From a virus: a stretch of DNA of 28,821 nucleotides. Below the pieces are notes generated by a model. The model worked only from the letters and a program-made list of their open reading frames with translations. It had not been told where the DNA came from and did not search any database. This document shows, in pieces, positions 2,400 to 27,020 of this stretch (its first letter is position 1; each line of letters opens with the position of its first letter). Position numbers and translations under genes: made by a program. The stretch is from positions 1-28,821 of IMG/VR virus record IMGVR_UViG_3300042860_001903. One strand, given 5' to 3'.

Positions 2400-2451
2400 A
2401 GGGTCTCCGTTGCTGATGTACTCTATTCGCACGTGCAACGTATGATTGCAA
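2400..2451 (-). promoter_or_regulatory. early promoter/operator and conserved leader, copy 1
   Basis: Read on the minus strand this holds TTGCAA, an inverted repeat TGCAA-N7-TTGCA (plus-strand 2434-2450), a GAATAG that could be a -10 seventeen bases after TTGCAA, then ATCAGCAACGGAGACCC and the ATG at 2396. It lines up almost base for base with the element before 17505. A promoter is inferred; the repeat itself is seen directly. Confidence 0.6.
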
Positions 2452-2865: not shown

Positions 2866-2922
2866 GGATCTCCTTTTTGTTACTGACATTCGACACATAA
2901 GTTGCACAACTCTAAGTTGCAA
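2866..2922 (-). promoter_or_regulatory. early promoter/leader, divergent copy 2
   Basis: On the minus strand: TTGCAA, seventeen bases, TATGTG (a reasonable -35/-10 pair), then GTCAGTAACAAAAAGGAGAT and CCTGACATG. It is a degenerate version of the ATCAGCAA...GGAGACC leader; the CCTGACATG end is shared with copy 1. The inverted repeat here is CAACT-CTA-AGTTG flanked by TTGCA and CAA, so the spacing differs from the other copies. Confidence 0.5.
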
Positions 2923-3205: not shown

Positions 3206-3399
3206 TCCGGCTGCCTTCCGGCCGACCAGTTCGGCGTCACGCGCGCGTCGCTGTTAGGGACGCACCAAATCTCGCCGGATGTGTTCAAAGTCACAACCCA
3301 CAGCAGGTTGTGCTCCTGCCCGTAGTCGATCACGGCCAGCGCCAGACCGCGACCCTTGGGCGTGTCCATTGGGATCGAGGGGTTGAGCTGCGTAAACAT
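3202..3399 (-). CDS. small conserved phage protein (65 aa)
   Basis: The protein starts MFTQLNPSIPMDTPKGRG and continues with LAVIDYGQEHNLLWVV and GEIWCVPNSDARV. I recall very similar short proteins in many phages (Q-L-N-P-x-I-P start, then an IDYG-x-EH motif), usually next to replication genes, but no function is known to me. It is probably a small all-beta protein. The ATG at 3399 overlaps the DNA polymerase stop by one base (TGATG) and its stop overlaps the VRR-NUC start by four bases. It is therefore translationally coupled between two replication enzymes, and a role in that machinery is possible. Confidence 0.75.
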   Translation of the reverse strand: MFTQLNPSIPMDTPKGRGLALAVIDYGQEHNLLWVVTLNTSGEIWCVPNSDARVTPNWSAGRQPE

Positions 3400-5363
3400 C
3401 AGTCCTTGCGGTAACGATACGCCTCGAAGCCGGCGGCGGCAAGCGGCAGGCCGGCCGACCAGCTCGGGTTGGTGGACATGATCGCCGCCAGCCCCTCGCT
3501 GGTGTAGGCCGGCTCGTCCGGCGTCTCGCAGACCAGCTCGTCGTGCACGCGGATGCAGACGCTGTAGCCGGCCTCCTCGGCGCGCAGCATGCCGGACATG
3601 AACACGTCGCGGGCGATGGCCTGCACGGCGTTCTCGACCAGCTTGCCGCCGTACGTGTCGAGGCGCTCCCACTTGCGGGTGAATTGGTTCATGCCCTCGT
3701 AGGACAGGCTGCCGCTGGCCGACGCCTCCGGGCGCGGGTAGCACAGGTAGCGGCCGCTCGGCAGCTTCATCCGCAGCCACGCGATGCCCTGCCCGTCCGG
3801 CTTCACGTCGAACGTGATCAGGTCGCGCACGGCGAAGCTCTCGCCCATCTTGTTGATGGCTGACCGCGCGGCCGCCTCCATGTCGTACCACAGGTTGCGC
3901 GTGCACGGGTGGGCCTTGCGCCACGCCGAGACGATCTCTTGGATGGCCTCGTCCGTCATCGCGTCGAACACCTTGCCGCCCATCTTGCGGTACGCGCCGA
4001 CGCCGCCCTGATAGCCTCCCGCCAGCTCGGGCACCTTGCCCTGCAGTTGGCGCTCGGCCTTGGTGATGAGGCCCGGATCTTTGCCGAGGATGCGGCCGGC
4101 GGTCACCTTATACAGGTCGTGCCCGTCGCCCCGGTCGTAGGCCTTGAACGCCGTGACCTTCCAGTCCTCGCCGGCCAGCCACGCCAGCACGCGGCCCTCG
4201 ATGTTGGACAGGTCGGCGATGACCAGCTTGGTGCCCTCGGGGGCGACCAGCGCCCCGCGCACGGCGAAGGCGCAGCGCTCGCTGACGTTGTCCCAGATCA
4301 GGTGCTCGCAGTCCGCCTTCATGGCGGCCACGGTCGTCGCCTGCACGTCGTCATCGAACCAGTCGGGGCTGCGCGGCAGGTTCTGCGGCTGGAACAGGCG
4401 GCCGGCGTCACGCCCGGTGCGCGCCGCGCCGCAGAACTGGATCAGGCCGCGCAGGCGGCCGTCCTTGTTCGTGGCGTTGAGCAGCACACTGTACTTAGCC
4501 GGGCTCGTCGCGGCCGCCTGCTGGCGGATCTCCAGCAGCTCGCGCACCTGCGGGTCGAGGTCTCCGTCGAGCAGGTTGCCGAGCGTGGCGCGCGTCAGAT
4601 CCTCGGTCTCGAAGCCGTGGGCGTCCTTGAGGTGGTCGAGCAGGCGCTGGCGCTGCGTGGCGGACGTGACGCTGCCGCCGGTCAGATCGGCTGCACGAGT
4701 GGCCAGAGATCGTCCAGCTCGATCGAAAGCTCGTAGAGCTGCTCGTGCAAACTCTCGGTCAACGGCGACACCACGGTCATTAATTCTTTGATCACACTGC
4801 CACAGGAGCCGCTCACGATCACAATCGTTCCATGATGGCAGTCGTCCAAGTACGCTTCGCATTGCGTCCACATCCAGCCGGGCGTACTCGACGAAGGCGA
4901 CCCACTCGGCGGGATGTGTGTCACGGGTGGCTCTCCGTATCTTGACGTTGCTGGGCCTCGGCTTCGTCAGCAAGTGTATCAGCTTTTTGCCTGCCTTGTC
5001 TTTGGCTTTGTCCTGCGGCACGTGCAGCACGTCGCAGAGCTGGCCCAGAGAGCCGGGCAGGCTGTGCTGCAGGGCCAGCACCATCGTGTCGATGACCTTC
5101 TCCACGGGGATGTGGACGCCCTGCTCGCGCAGGACGGTGCGGTCGAAGTTGCTGTTGTGGATCACGACGCGATCAGACTTGTCGATGATGTTCTGCAGCG
5201 CGTGACGCCAATGCACGAGATCCTGCGTGTCCCAGACCGCAACAGGATCGCTGTCCATCGCCCACGCCACCAGCATCACCTCGGCGTCCTCCGCGTAGCG
5301 GTACGCGCCGTAGGTGATCTTGGTTTCGCAGAATGTTTCGAGATCGAGGTACAGTGTGCTCAT
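3399..5363 (-). CDS. DNA polymerase, family A, with 3'-5' exonuclease
   Basis: A replicative polymerase of 654 residues. The N-terminal DnaQ-like exonuclease has D7 and E9 (LDLETF), D74 (HNSNFD) and the Exo III motif YARLD with Y160 and D164, so proofreading should be active. The polymerase domain shows motif A VIADLSNIEGR (D383, E389), an O-helix-like motif B at about 436-452 (KAERQLQGKVPELAGGY), and motif C VHDE (H607, D608, E609). There is no 5' nuclease domain, as usual for phage enzymes. The ATG at 5363 has a GAGG motif five bases upstream. That ribosome-binding site lies in one arm of a long inverted repeat (5369-5450), which could restrict translation. The gene is followed by the 65-residue protein and VRR-NUC with overlapping junctions. 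Confidence 0.96.
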   Translation of the reverse strand: MSTLYLDLETFCETKITYGAYRYAEDAEVMLVAWAMDSDPVAVWDTQDLVHWRHALQNIIDKSDRVVIHNSNFDRTVLREQGVHIPVEKVIDTMVLALQHSLPGSLGQLCDVLHVPQDKAKDKAGKKLIHLLTKPRPSNVKIRRATRDTHPAEWVAFVEYARLDVDAMRSVLGRLPSWNDCDRERLLWQCDQRINDRGVAVDREFARAALRAFDRAGRSLATRAADLTGGSVTSATQRQRLLDHLKDAHGFETEDLTRATLGNLLDGDLDPQVRELLEIRQQAAATSPAKYSVLLNATNKDGRLRGLIQFCGAARTGRDAGRLFQPQNLPRSPDWFDDDVQATTVAAMKADCEHLIWDNVSERCAFAVRGALVAPEGTKLVIADLSNIEGRVLAWLAGEDWKVTAFKAYDRGDGHDLYKVTAGRILGKDPGLITKAERQLQGKVPELAGGYQGGVGAYRKMGGKVFDAMTDEAIQEIVSAWRKAHPCTRNLWYDMEAAARSAINKMGESFAVRDLITFDVKPDGQGIAWLRMKLPSGRYLCYPRPEASASGSLSYEGMNQFTRKWERLDTYGGKLVENAVQAIARDVFMSGMLRAEEAGYSVCIRVHDELVCETPDEPAYTSEGLAAIMSTNPSWSAGLPLAAAGFEAYRYRKD

Positions 5364-5368
5364 GATGT

Positions 5369-5450
5369 CCTCTGTTCGGGAGAGCCGCGCGCTTCGTGTA
5401 TCAGCAACGCAGGAGACCCCGCACCCACGCGCGGCTCACCAGAACAGAGG
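5369..5450 (-). promoter_or_regulatory. stem-loop over the polymerase ribosome-binding site, with antisense leader in its loop
   Basis: Arms CCTCTGTTC (5369-5377) and GAACAGAGG (5442-5450) pair perfectly over 9 bp. After a 4x4 internal loop, GAGCCGCGCG (5382-5391) pairs with CGCGCGGCTC (5428-5437) over 10 bp, leaving a 36-base loop. In the polymerase mRNA the GAGG ribosome-binding site lies in the outer arm. The loop reads GGGTCTCC-TGC-GTTGCTGAT in that mRNA, which is the reverse complement of the ATCAGCAAC/GGAGACCC leader before other early genes, apart from a 3-base insertion. The structure is seen; the regulatory role is inferred. Confidence 0.55.
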
Positions 5451-5491
5451 CGCGCCTGCCCCGCCAAGGGGGAGAAACAGGGCAGGCGCGC
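5450..5491. other. perfect 12-bp inverted repeat (strong hairpin)
   Basis: GCGCGCCTGCCC (5450-5461) and GGGCAGGCGCGC (5480-5491) are perfect complements around an 18-base loop. No T-run follows on either strand, so it is not a standard intrinsic terminator. It lies between the GapR-like gene and the polymerase leader stem-loop, sharing one base with the latter. It may be an mRNA processing or stability element, or a protein-binding site. Confidence 0.6.
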
Positions 5492-5504
5492 TGGTTCTAT
5501 AGAC

Positions 5505-5759
5505 CTACAGGAGATCCATGCCAATAGCCTTTGCGTAGGTCTCGAGCAGGGCGAAGTGCTCGTTCCTATCGTCATTGGCCATCTTGCGGAGACGGACGAC
5601 CTCGCGGAGGATCTTGGCATCATACCCACGGGCCTTGGCCTCGGTGTAGATGTCCTTGATGTCGTCCGCGATGCCCTTCTTCTCCGCCTCAAGCGTCTCA
5701 ATGCGCTCGATCAGGAGGCGCAGTTGTTCGCCTGCGCTGTTGTGTCCCTCCTCGCTCAC
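5505..5759 (-). CDS. DUF2312 / GapR-family DNA-binding protein (84 aa)
   Basis: A small helical protein matching DUF2312 (UPF0335). It contains LRLLIERIETLEAEKKGIADDIKD followed by YTEAKARGYD, KILREVVRLRKM and a C-terminal ALLETYAKAIG helix. The Caulobacter member GapR binds overtwisted, AT-rich DNA ahead of replication and transcription and helps type II topoisomerases. A phage copy could serve the phage's own replication or alter the host nucleoid. Its length is normal for the family. The GTG at 5759 overlaps the stop of the DUF2815 gene as GTGA; a longer frame upstream lies inside that gene and is not credible. The family is largely alphaproteobacterial, which is the main clue to the host. 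It is separated from the polymerase by 141 bases of structured non-coding sequence. Confidence 0.9.
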   Translation of the reverse strand: MSEEGHNSAGEQLRLLIERIETLEAEKKGIADDIKDIYTEAKARGYDAKILREVVRLRKMANDDRNEHFALLETYAKAIGMDLL

Positions 5760-8687: not shown

Positions 8688-8746
8688 GGTCTCTCCTTGG
8701 GGTTGCTGATACATACCCATATGAACTTATCAATCTCGCATTGCAA
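8688..8746 (-). promoter_or_regulatory. early promoter/operator and conserved leader, copy 3
   Basis: Minus strand: TTGCAA (8741-8746), seventeen bases, CATATG as a possible -10, then TATGTATCAGCAACCCCAAG with GGAGAGACCCAC before the ATG at 8684. One half of the TGCAA-N7-TTGCA repeat is intact (GCATTGCA), the other degraded to ATCAATCT. It lies just past the stop of the primase-helicase gene and would drive the whole polymerase operon. Confidence 0.6.
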
Positions 8747-12414: not shown

Positions 12415-12654
12415 TTACAGCAGGTCGGCGCTGGCACTCGGGGCAGCAAGCGCGCGGACGAGGTCGGGGCTCATCAGGTCATCGCGCGGGACGCCGTAGG
12501 CGGCCTCGATCACGACGGCCTTCTCCACCGGCACCCAGCCTCTGCGCTTCCACGCGTAGACCGCCTGATGCGACACGCCCATGCTTTTTGCGAAGCGGAC
12601 GATGCCGCCGCCCTTGGCGATGGCGAGATTGATGGCGTCAATTCGGTTTGTCAT
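12415..12654 (-). CDS. YdaS/Cro-like helix-turn-helix regulator (79 aa)
   Basis: A small DNA-binding protein of the YdaS-like Cro family. It reads AINLAIAKGGGIVRFAKSMGVSHQAVYAWKRRGWVP then VEKAVVIEAAYGVPRDDL; the recognition helix is around SHQAVYAWKRRG, and the downstream 'VIEAAYGV.R.DL' is typical of the family. These proteins act as repressors or anti-repressors in phage early control regions. Its operator is unknown; the palindromes TGCAA-N7-TTGCA in this window are plausible sites, especially the perfect one at 13121-13137 in front of its own transcription unit. The ATG at 12654 overlaps the upstream stop by four bases. Confidence 0.85.
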   Translation of the reverse strand: MTNRIDAINLAIAKGGGIVRFAKSMGVSHQAVYAWKRRGWVPVEKAVVIEAAYGVPRDDLMSPDLVRALAAPSASADLL

Positions 12655-13078: not shown

Positions 13079-13082
13079 GTCG

Positions 13083-13138
13083 GTCTCTCCGTTTGCTGAT
13101 GGGCCTGTTGTTGTGGCAGATGCAATCGCCGATTGCAA
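13083..13138. promoter_or_regulatory. early promoter/operator and leader, copy 4, with a perfect palindrome between divergent genes
   Basis: TGCAATCG-C-CGATTGCA (13121-13137) is a perfect 17-bp palindrome. Leftward it is followed by the ATCAGCAA-ACGGAGAGACC leader of the gene at 13078. Rightward, the TTGCAA at 13133-13138 could be the -35 of the promoter for the metallophosphoesterase (13204), with AT-rich sequence in the -10 region (AACAAT at 13154). A dimeric repressor bound here could control both directions. Confidence 0.65.
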
Positions 13139-16854: not shown

Positions 16855-16872
16855 GTGTCTCCTTGGTTGCTG
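16855..16872 (-). promoter_or_regulatory. conserved leader without promoter, copy 5
   Basis: On the minus strand ATCAGCAACCAAGGAGACAC runs from just after the stop of the gene at 16874 to the GTG at 16851. There is no TTGCAA nearby, so here the leader works inside an operon, most simply as an extended ribosome-binding site. Confidence 0.6.
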
Positions 16873-16873
16873 A

Positions 16874-17101
16874 TTAGGCTTCGATGTGGTTGCCGTTGAT
16901 GTAAGCACCGTCGGTGTAGATGGCGGCGACGGGCGTGCCGTTACGCGAGCGCAGCAGCCACGCGCTCTCGTCTTCGTCCCAGTGCACGTCGACCGCGCCA
17001 GCGGCGACAGCCACCGCGACGAAGTCCGCGTCGAAGATGCACTCGCGGCCGCAGGTGACTTCGGCGATGTGGCTTTCGATGTCGGCGATCAGTTTGGTCA
17101 T
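16874..17101 (-). CDS. small acidic hypothetical protein, first gene of the second leftward block (75 aa)
   Basis: MTKLIADIESHIAEVTCGRE is followed by a hydrophobic segment FVAVAVAAGAVDVHW and a final part LLRSRNGTPVAAIYTDGAYI. The pattern suggests an alpha/beta mini-domain, not a membrane protein. No family is recognised. The ATG at 17101 is set by the leader (GGAGACACCCA) directly upstream. It is the first gene of the leftward accessory operon, driven by the element at 17105-17163. Confidence 0.7.
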   Translation of the reverse strand: MTKLIADIESHIAEVTCGRECIFDADFVAVAVAAGAVDVHWDEDESAWLLRSRNGTPVAAIYTDGAYINGNHIEA

Positions 17102-17104
17102 TGG

Positions 17105-17163
17105 GTGTCTCCGGTTGGTCGTTGCTGATGACCTCTTCTCTCATAACCAACGTGAGGTTGCAA
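17105..17163 (-). promoter_or_regulatory. early promoter/operator and conserved leader, copy 6
   Basis: Minus strand: TTGCAA (17158-17163), a degenerate TGCAA-N7-TTGGT repeat, TTATGAGAGAAG, then ATCAGCAACGACCAACC and GGAGACACCCAATG. The TGAGAGAAG segment and the GGAGACACCCAATG end are shared exactly with the divergent copy before 17505, showing that the whole module has been duplicated on either side of the repeat region. Confidence 0.65.
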
Positions 17164-17173
17164 TAGCCTAATT

Positions 17174-17433
17174 TGCAGCATTTGCACTTTTTTACATCCC
17201 TCTGCAGCATGCAGCATTAGCAGCATGCTGCGTCGTGCTGCAAATGGTGCAGGTCGGGTAATGCAGCATTTATGCAGCAGCAAGGGGAGACACCCCCTTA
17301 GGGGTGGCCCCCACTGCTGCAAATGCTGCACCGAGCAGATGCTGTGCTGCGCTGCAGATTTCCATGCTGTGCCGGAAGCTGAAGATGCAGCATGATGCGT
17401 CGTGCTGCAGATGCTGCAGCGCCTCGTGCTGCA
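17174..17433. repeat. cluster of TGCAGCA/TGCTGCA motifs in the 400-base non-coding region
   Basis: The interval 17164-17449 holds no convincing gene. About a dozen copies of TGCAGCA or its complement occur between 17174 and 17433. They include two head-to-tail at 17203-17217, the 12-bp palindrome GCAGCATGCTGC at 17220-17231, ATGCAGCAT at 17261 and 17385, and ATGCTGCAG pairs at 17403-17419. A longer unit, GCGTCGTGCTGCA, occurs twice. Spacing is irregular. A G/C hairpin ACCCC-CTTA-GGGGT sits at about 17292-17305. It lies between divergent early and late transcription units, so a replication origin, packaging (pac) site or regulator-binding array are the candidates. Confidence 0.65.
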
Positions 17434-17449
17434 CCTCGTAAAATATCGC

Positions 17450-17502
17450 TTGCAACGGTGCGTTGCATGTGAGAGAAGCAATTATCAGCAAACGGAGACA
17501 CC
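17450..17502 (+). promoter_or_regulatory. promoter/operator and conserved leader, copy 7
   Basis: Plus strand: TTGCAA at 17450-17455, inverted repeat TGCAACG-GTG-CGTTGCA (17451-17467, perfect 7-bp arms), GTGAGAGAAG, then ATCAGCAAACGGAGACACCC and the ATG at 17505. This is the cleanest copy of the module and the only one pointing toward the packaging genes. Confidence 0.65.
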
Positions 17503-26354: not shown

Positions 26355-27020
26355 ATGCCTTGCCAGATTGACGGCTGCACCCGCCCGCACAAGGCGCGCG
26401 GTCTTTGCCAGACGCACTATGCCCAGCGCCTGCGGGGCTCAGACTTTTCACCCATCCGCAGCCGCGTCCGCGAAAAGCCGGTCGAATGTACGGAGGAAGA
26501 CTGCGCCGAACCCGTGAAGTCCAAGGGGTTGTGCAAGATGCACTACCAGCGGTTTTTGCGACACGGTCACACCATGTATCGCAACCGCAAGAAGCCCGCG
26601 AAACAGTGCGGGATCGACGGCTGTGACAGCGTTCTGTACGCCAAAGACCTGTGCCACGCCCACTACATCAAGCAGCGCAAGTGGCAGGCGGCTGGCGTTG
26701 ACGCCACCCGGTATCAGGAGATGCTGCGCGAGCAGGGCGGCGTCTGCGCCATCTGCGCCCAGCCTGAGCGCGCACCAGACAAGGCGTCAGGCAAGACGAA
26801 GGATCTCGCCATCGACCACGACCACGTCACAGGCGCGATCCGCGCCCTGCTTTGCTCGAACTGCAATCGTGGTCTGGGCCTCTTTAACGATGACGAGGGG
26901 CTACTAGCCAAGGCACAAACGTATGTGCTATATCATAGACAATCTGGGCAAACCCCAGCTTGTCAGACCGGCCCAGCGGACGATGCACAGACTGACAGGC
27001 GACTTGTGCATAAGGACTGA
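26355..27020 (+). CDS. HNH endonuclease, recombination endonuclease VII-like, with three zinc-finger-like repeats
   Basis: A 221-residue nuclease. The C-terminal part matches the endonuclease VII/HNH fold: C131, C134 (CAIC), the DHDH centre (D154-H157), C167, C170 (CSNCN) and the GLGLFNDDEGLLAKA helix. The N-terminus holds three repeated C-x4-C-x9-C-x2-H units (C3/C8/C18/H21; C45/C50/C60/H63; C85/C90/C100/H103), each ending GLC-x-x-HY or similar; these probably bind DNA. Free-standing HNH nucleases of this kind are homing genes that insert between late genes. Here it splits the capsid gene from the next virion gene. Expression should be low because of the terminator over its ribosome-binding site. 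A Holliday-junction role as in T4 is less likely given its location. Confidence 0.9.
   Translation: MPCQIDGCTRPHKARGLCQTHYAQRLRGSDFSPIRSRVREKPVECTEEDCAEPVKSKGLCKMHYQRFLRHGHTMYRNRKKPAKQCGIDGCDSVLYAKDLCHAHYIKQRKWQAAGVDATRYQEMLREQGGVCAICAQPERAPDKASGKTKDLAIDHDHVTGAIRALLCSNCNRGLGLFNDDEGLLAKAQTYVLYHRQSGQTPACQTGPADDAQTDRRLVHKD

Follow-up and report, generated by a model that had tools for sequence, protein, structure and literature searches.

The phage antisense RNA c4 is processed from a precursor transcript. According to the passages on phage RNAs in PMC12197685, c4 of phages P1 and P7 binds complementary regions around the ribosome-binding site (RBS) of the ant mRNA, the complementary sequences likely lying in loops, and both c4 and sar of phage P22 act on ant (antirepressor) mRNA. 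The c4 antisense RNA is Rfam family RF01695 in the relevant part of PMC2864571. The same passages of PMC12197685 describe VpdS of VP882 and PreS of lambda as base-pairing phage RNAs that require Hfq, PreS targeting the host gene dnaN and VpdS taking part in a host-phage RNA network. For the mRNA of T4 gene 43 (DNA polymerase), the section of PMC3014915 on this operator describes an autogenous hairpin upstream of the start codon that overlaps the RBS; the operator hairpins of T4 and RB69, of 18 and 16 bases, are bound by the polymerase itself.

We analyzed a 28,821-base virus record (G000), here called the window, in which a hairpin, HP2, precedes a DNA polymerase gene. Like c4 as those passages describe it, HP2 has loop-borne segments complementary to RBS regions of phage mRNA; unlike c4 and sar, which are described there as acting on ant mRNA, its loop matches a tag that recurs in front of many genes and lies in the 5' region of a replication operon. 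As with VpdS and PreS in the same account, a phage RNA is proposed to regulate by base pairing, but this RNA belongs to the 5' region of an mRNA and is predicted to target the tagged leaders of its own phage. With the T4 gene 43 operator, as outlined in its source, HP2 shares mainly its position upstream of a phage DNA polymerase start; unlike in that operator, the next gene behind HP2 varies and the loop tracks RNA tags. By analogy, c4 is the closest known mechanism. An Rfam scan of the window gave no family at gathering score, and the matches up to E 5 around the element (6C, weev_FSE, CcsR1, and mir-3173, all subthreshold) do not include c4, so we do not claim c4 membership. A search of the open-licence literature found no description of the element formed by HP2 and its neighbor HP1, which is not proof of absence.

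Sequence and fold of HP2

The locus comprises the following features.

5505..5759, minus strand: GapR-like DNA-binding protein gene (PF10073, by family scan), just upstream of HP1-HP2
5496..5524, minus strand: promoter-like TTGGCA (5524-5519), 17-nt spacer, and TATAGA (5501-5496), a few bases upstream of HP1
5451..5491, minus strand: HP1, second hairpin directly 5' of HP2, its stem rewritten with compensation in relatives
5369..5450, minus strand: HP2, a 21-pair stem with two 1x1 mismatches and a 36-nt loop; the 3' arm holds the Shine-Dalgarno (SD) sequence of the downstream gene
5412..5419, minus strand: anti-tag part b (GGGTCTCC), complement of the leader SD region, partly within a small apical hairpin
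5400..5408, minus strand: anti-tag part a (GTTGCTGAT), mostly single stranded in the HP2 loop
5369..5372, minus strand: polymerase SD (GAGG), paired in the HP2 outer stem
3399..5363, minus strand: family A DNA polymerase gene (by family scan), downstream of HP2

The minus strand from 5450 to 5369 reads CCTCTGTTC tggt GAGCCGCGCG, the 36-nt loop, CGCGCGGCTC tccc GAACAGAGG, and is followed by acatc and the polymerase ATG (5363). The hairpin that the original prediction placed in the polymerase mRNA exists and forms the core of a conserved RNA element. Its paired stem stands, but not the proposed division into 9 bp and 10 bp with a 4x4 internal loop: the stem is better drawn as 21 pairs with two 1x1 mismatches, T.C and T.T, flanking two G-C pairs. 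HP2 has an MFE of -50.7 kcal/mol (z, -3.8), and none of 200 shuffles was equally stable. The polymerase GAGG is hidden in the outer arm, as had been claimed: each of its four bases is unpaired with a modeled probability of at most 0.009, and burial extends to relatives, with a downstream SD unpaired probability of ≤0.1 in 43 of 50 sequences. Also as claimed, the loop is antisense to the phage's own leader, since it contains GGGTCTCC-TGC-GTTGCTGAT, complementary to the leader ATCAGCAAC..GGAGACCC. The mean unpaired probability of anti-tag part a is at least 0.5 in 48 of the 49 scored sequences (L097 unscored), with an overall mean of 0.68. Opening the whole loop carries a modeled cost of 11.7 kcal/mol because part b sits in the small hairpin. 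Reading HP2 as an intrinsic terminator or attenuator, a stem followed by a U-run, was rejected, as a scan of the window found no terminator-like site at 5300-5700.

The stem is maintained by compensatory change, which the original prediction had proposed as a check. In an alignment of 50 distinct HP2 sequences, 97.3% of cells are paired, with two-sided changes at 16 of the 21 pairs; the stem score was not approached in any of 500 shuffles and collapsed when the alignment was slid by 1 to 3 columns. RNAalifold, to which no structure was supplied, returned 18 pairs, mostly the same ones, 15 of them with compensatory changes.

Occurrence of the element in relatives

Relatives came from an IMG/VR polymerase search (28 loci), from hairpin-pattern scans, and from a polymerase-profile scan of IMG/VR that supplied the best 80 of at least 585 relatives. 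Long hairpins were sought automatically in the 1.7 kb upstream of the polymerase, and one was picked in 150 of 153 loci; the L183 hairpin was added and the L174 pick corrected by hand, both with hand-set loops. Chance matches dropped by eye were L062, L070, L075, L082, L094, L095, L098, L099, L101-L106, and L108, and loci without a polymerase start (e.g., L016, L022, L023, L028, L122, L135, L143, and L169) were left out. HP2 lies upstream of the polymerase in all 23 loci of the first polymerase search and in 73 of 75 loci of the profile set (best 80 of at least 585). Of the two misses, L150 lacks any upstream sequence; in L137 another gene stands upstream, neither tag nor anti-tag motifs were found in 9.1 kb, and the covariance model finds no hairpin. 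Counted by contig, the hairpin is present in 96 of 97, part of these contigs having been found via the hairpin pattern itself.

The distance between hairpin and polymerase is at most 20 nt in 45 contigs and 57 to 1,303 nt in the other 51 of 96. Judged by eye, the intervening sequence consists mostly of open reading frames, such as a 97-amino-acid frame without a Pfam family in L006. Because other sequence, mostly genes, stands between the two in 51 of 96 contigs, the hairpin is not polymerase specific. This variability weakens polymerase autoregulation as its main role, is at odds with an autogenous operator of the T4 gene 43 type, in which the hairpin is tied to the polymerase, and leaves the originally proposed switch coupling polymerase synthesis to early mRNA level unsupported. 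Small genes, many of them beginning ..TATCAGC-ATG, are swapped at the site behind HP2 (L006, L011, L046, and others); from these sequences, the position after HP2 appears to be a site of gene exchange.

A covariance-model search of 58 sources gave one strong gene-strand match in each of the 35 that bear the element. Matches elsewhere were few and weak (E of 0.22 or worse), besides a chance palindrome in L103 at E 3e-6, so the model is not fully specific against G+C-rich palindromes. An exact-pattern scan of bacterial genomes returned five stretches, whose displayed context lacked the stem in every case, and the model had no match in the examined loci of cultured phages RW, BPP-1, BcepC6B, Jess A, and Acinetobacter phage 4316. 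The polymerase of Caulobacter phage RW shows 58% identity, and the same gap in RW holds two predicted hairpins, the second without a long anti-tag loop. The polymerase region is about 2.88 kb long in L021 (L021:6001-8883) and RW (L186:6001-8883), versus 1.96 kb, which suggests an insertion, such as an intein.

HP1 and the promoter-like site

The strand of the folded RNA is set by HP1. Its stem has been rewritten repeatedly among relatives, with 18 G.U and 0 A.C combinations, in a count for which at least 3 of 50 HP1 picks (L035, L107, and L139) are not real HP1. This bias identifies the gene strand as the folded RNA and rules out an RNA folded from the opposite strand. In HP2 the non-Watson-Crick tally is 33 G.U, 45 A.C, and 66 other nonpairs, and many of the A.C combinations come from a single column in which C is opposite A in most rows; the strand call therefore depends on HP1. 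The better gene-strand scores of the covariance model are not independent evidence of strand, as the model was built from that strand.

Upstream of HP1, TTGGNN-N17-TAT(A/G) occurs with constant spacing in 41 of 49 distinct sequences, against a background, over all loci exceeding 9 kb, of 0.04 per kb and strand. Its -35 hexamer overlaps the last, conserved codons of the GapR-like gene, to which the conservation of the site is partly due. A generic consensus promoter scan of the window did not call the site before HP1 because it requires T as the sixth base of the second hexamer. The site suggests that an RNA containing the hairpins (HP RNA) could be produced independently of the tagged promoters.

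Tagged leaders in the window

The HP2 loop complements a tag, (A)TCAGCAAC plus an SD, that precedes other phage genes. The window contains 5 occurrences of ATCAGCAAC-N0-12-GGAGA versus 0.00 expected: one in the loop (antisense) and four in leaders (2404, 8692, 16858, and 17108).

2404..2417, minus strand: tagged leader ATCAGCAAC-GGAGA (pattern match)
2866..2887, minus strand: degenerate tagged leader GTCAGTAAC..GGAGATCC (imperfect copy)
8692..8710, minus strand: tagged leader ATCAGCAAC-CCCAA-GGAGA (pattern match), upstream in the same minus-strand gene run as HP2
13082..13100, minus strand: tagged leader ATCAGCAAA-C-GGAGAGACC (imperfect copy)
16858..16874, minus strand: tagged leader directly after a stop codon, without a promoter-like site (pattern match)
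17108..17129, minus strand: tagged leader ATCAGCAAC..GGAGA (pattern match)
17484..17501, plus strand: tagged leader ATCAGCAAA-C-GGAGACAC (imperfect copy)

The "at least seven" leaders of the original prediction thus comprise four exact ones and reach seven only with the two ATCAGCAAA copies and the degenerate GTCAGTAAC...GGAGATCC. The distance from tag to SD is 0 to 10 nt, and the modeled unpaired probability of the tag is 0.60 to 0.99 in five window leaders. Several different genes stand behind the tags; no antirepressor was found among the nine window proteins scanned for families. At L197 and L209, in the contig of L107, several tagged leaders follow an intergenic G+C-rich hairpin and have no promoter-like site, so the tag marks translation starts and not only transcript 5' ends.

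Other features of the window were noted in passing. The double motif TTGCAA-N7-TTGCA, a possible operator, occurs in tagged-leader promoters at 2434-2451, 13121-13138, and 17450-17467 (3 in the window versus 0.07 expected), and the window also has a Cro/YdaS-like gene (12415-12654). A 260-bp stretch between two divergent tagged leaders (17174-17433) contains 12 copies of the word TGCAGCA, distributed over both strands, with 25 in the whole window versus 7.7 expected; the cluster looks like an iteron-type origin or operator region. The translation of a plus-strand open reading frame at 26355-27020 shows, by eye, an HNH-like region preceded by repeated Cys/His motifs.

Co-variation of loop and tags

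Comparison of relatives strongly supports pairing between the loop and the tags. In permutation tests, whose values overstate independence because the clusters share ancestry, the whole duplex energy was -28.5 for own pairs versus -24.7 for permuted pairs (standard deviation, 0.62; 0/20,000; 30 clusters); part a alone gave a z of -6.0 (0/20,000; 29 clusters), part b alone gave a z of -3.5 (2/20,000; 29 clusters), and part b within the 21 clusters whose loops all carry GTTGCTGAT gave 4/20,000. At a seven-letter core, all 30 polymerase clusters were concordant versus 19.8 by permutation, with none of 100,000 permutations as high (maximum, 28/30); the loop-leader covariation on which the original prediction was to be judged is therefore present. 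Own loop-leader energy was weaker than the mean cross energy in 6 of the 30 clusters (L030, L036, L047, L083, L093, and L182).

We also looked for leaders kept without a match in the loop. At the core, 139 of 140 promoter-bearing leaders match their loop, a count in which close relatives' leaders are entered separately and are not independent cases and in which the L172 leader was entered by hand. Exceptions at the core come from L138 and L020, with one leader each; the L020 leader is missed by the pattern because its SD is AGAAAG. A wider leader search also matched coding sequence (L036, L093, L163, L177, L181, and L182), and the promoter filter was written after these matches had appeared. 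No promoter-bearing leader was found in the examined DNA of 16 of the 96 contigs.

From two odd loops we predicted tags, ACCAACAAC and TATCAAGCAA, and both were later found. The loop GTTGTTGGTAAC of one clade predicts ACCAACAAC leaders, and a ACCAACAAC leader with an SD and a start codon is present in 8 of the 14 loci with this loop core: L164, L165 (three leaders), L167, L174, L178, L179, L180, and L182. In L166, L168, L176, L177, and L181 only the loop itself was seen, with no ACCAACAAC leader, and L161, counted among the 14, has ACCAACAAA instead of ACCAACAAC; L175, at first listed with this clade in error, has a loop of the GTTGCTGAT type. The loop of L172 has one extra base and predicts TATCAAGCAA; a whole-contig search found such a leader, promoter included. 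For L107, whose loop is GTTGTTGAT, a whole-contig search returned seven CAACAAC..GGAG gene-strand matches, six of them leaders ATCAACAAC, and the sole TCAGCAAC in the parts examined has no SD and start after it.

On the polymerase tree, changed cores fall at four places (the ACCAAC clade, L161, L107, and L172/L185), L161 being a long branch and L172/L185 weakly placed, or at six with the first-base cases L100 (GTCAGCAACT) and L149 (CTCAGC). These two are weaker because the first tag base tracks the loop loosely: 15 leaders elsewhere carry G or C in place of the A predicted from the loop. Tracking of the leaders extends to the SD-side half of the loop: GGAGCAAAC leaders accompany GTTTGCTCC loops in L031 and L035.

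Complementarity to the gene behind HP2

The sequences indicate that the loop can often address its own downstream gene too. Perfect complementarity between the loop and the downstream start region extends over 8 to 11 nt in 37 of 64 distinct combinations and over 7 nt or less in 27, the window (a 4-nt match) among them. Own cis pairs fit better than permuted ones (-16.6 versus -14.9; 0/20,000), and flanking bases match their own loop (GATAAC with GTTATC, GATACAC with GTGTATC, and GATCCT with AGGATC). The 27 combinations with 7 nt or less rule out cis pairing as the loop's sole role. In L107 and the ACCAAC clade the cis match is at most 7 nt, and the loop still tracks the leaders. The downstream start region of L107 has no tag, yet its six leaders bear the changed tag; leader pairing is thus separable from cis pairing.

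DISCUSSION

We consider it probable that HP1-HP2 is an antisense module of the 5' untranslated region whose pairing with the tags keeps ribosomes from binding to early mRNAs. A transcript reading into the polymerase operon would carry HP1-HP2 as structured RNA at or close to its 5' end, the HP2 loop displaying an anti-tag against the two-part tag at the translation starts of many early genes. The single-stranded part a would contact the tag first, and pairing would then spread across the SD, so that ribosomes could not start. A mostly single-stranded anti-tag, leaders with a largely unpaired tag, and complementarity that includes the SD are together the build of an antisense RNA that prevents translation initiation. 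As HP RNA accumulated, the tagged early genes would be lowered jointly. The gene behind HP2 would itself be held low by the burial of its SD in the stem and, in roughly half of the variants, by an additional match between the loop and a tag copy at the gene's start codon. As in a regulon of a trans-acting small RNA, one segment is complementary to several mRNA start regions and co-varies with them. The original prediction that the loop pairs with the leaders in trans and represses them is supported, in many lineages, as far as loop-leader co-variation goes; we infer that a free HP RNA is made, that it pairs in trans, and that repression is the outcome, as we do the direction of the regulation.

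The reverse direction is the alternative to which we give most room, though we think it unlikely. Abundant tagged leaders would occupy the loop, which would then release the tag copy at the start codon of the gene behind HP2, and translation of that gene would be coupled to the level of early mRNA. The 8- to 11-nt complementarity in 37 of 64 combinations and the better fit of own cis pairs speak for this reading, but matches are no longer than 7 nt in the other 27, several of which, including L107 and the ACCAAC clade, still have a loop that tracks the leaders. Moreover, the SD is held by the stem. When HP2 was cofolded with seven leaders, SD opening reached at most 0.29 (one base, leader 8692) and otherwise at most 0.10, a weak test because the model cannot represent the pairing of a closed loop; the original suggestion that leader binding opens the polymerase hairpin thus gained little from it. 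A long-range contact within a single transcript, between the operon's 5' leader and HP2 about 3.3 kb downstream, might instead set first-gene translation or mRNA stability. We see only a slim chance of this: the tagged leader at 8692 does lie upstream of HP2 in the same minus-strand gene run, but tags also precede genes distant from HP2, including one on the opposite strand (17484) and one after the polymerase (2404).

Slightly less doubtful is that a phage protein reads the tag as DNA or RNA, the inverted HP2 copy being an extra site and the co-variation tracking the protein. Nearly all tags of a genome have one core in common, as expected for a shared protein, and the TTGCA repeats in leader promoters resemble operators in a genome with a Cro/YdaS-like gene. 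However, the copy is inverted and sits in the loop of a conserved RNA stem in 96 hairpin contigs; it includes the complement of the SD part of the tag, which co-varies too; and the variable tag-SD distance of 0 to 10 nt is unlike a rigid protein site. The idea that the loop is a functionless, reverse-inserted leader copy, or chance, draws only on the fact that one window by itself would be compatible with a relic. Conservation with co-variation in relatives led us to reject the relic put forward in the original prediction, and loop-tag co-variation together with the two predicted tags excludes it in our judgment, so that we regard it as extremely improbable.

Pairing of an antisense module with the early leaders is therefore the reading that we carry forward. 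Loop-tag co-variation suggests an RNA switch that controls an entire set of phage genes, and on the best reading the proposed HP RNA would work like P1 c4 while addressing a whole regulon. With about even confidence, we propose that a lineage-specific tag on the early-gene set and a matching anti-tag in one replication-operon hairpin, drifting as a unit, form a phage-wide RNA addressing code. Natural tag/anti-tag pairs may be orthogonal, and a direct test with natural alleles is possible. If the code exists, related phages in one cell would each regulate only their own early genes. This would be RNA control of a phage program at the scale of a regulon, whereas the phage antisense RNAs compared here act on one or a few mRNAs.
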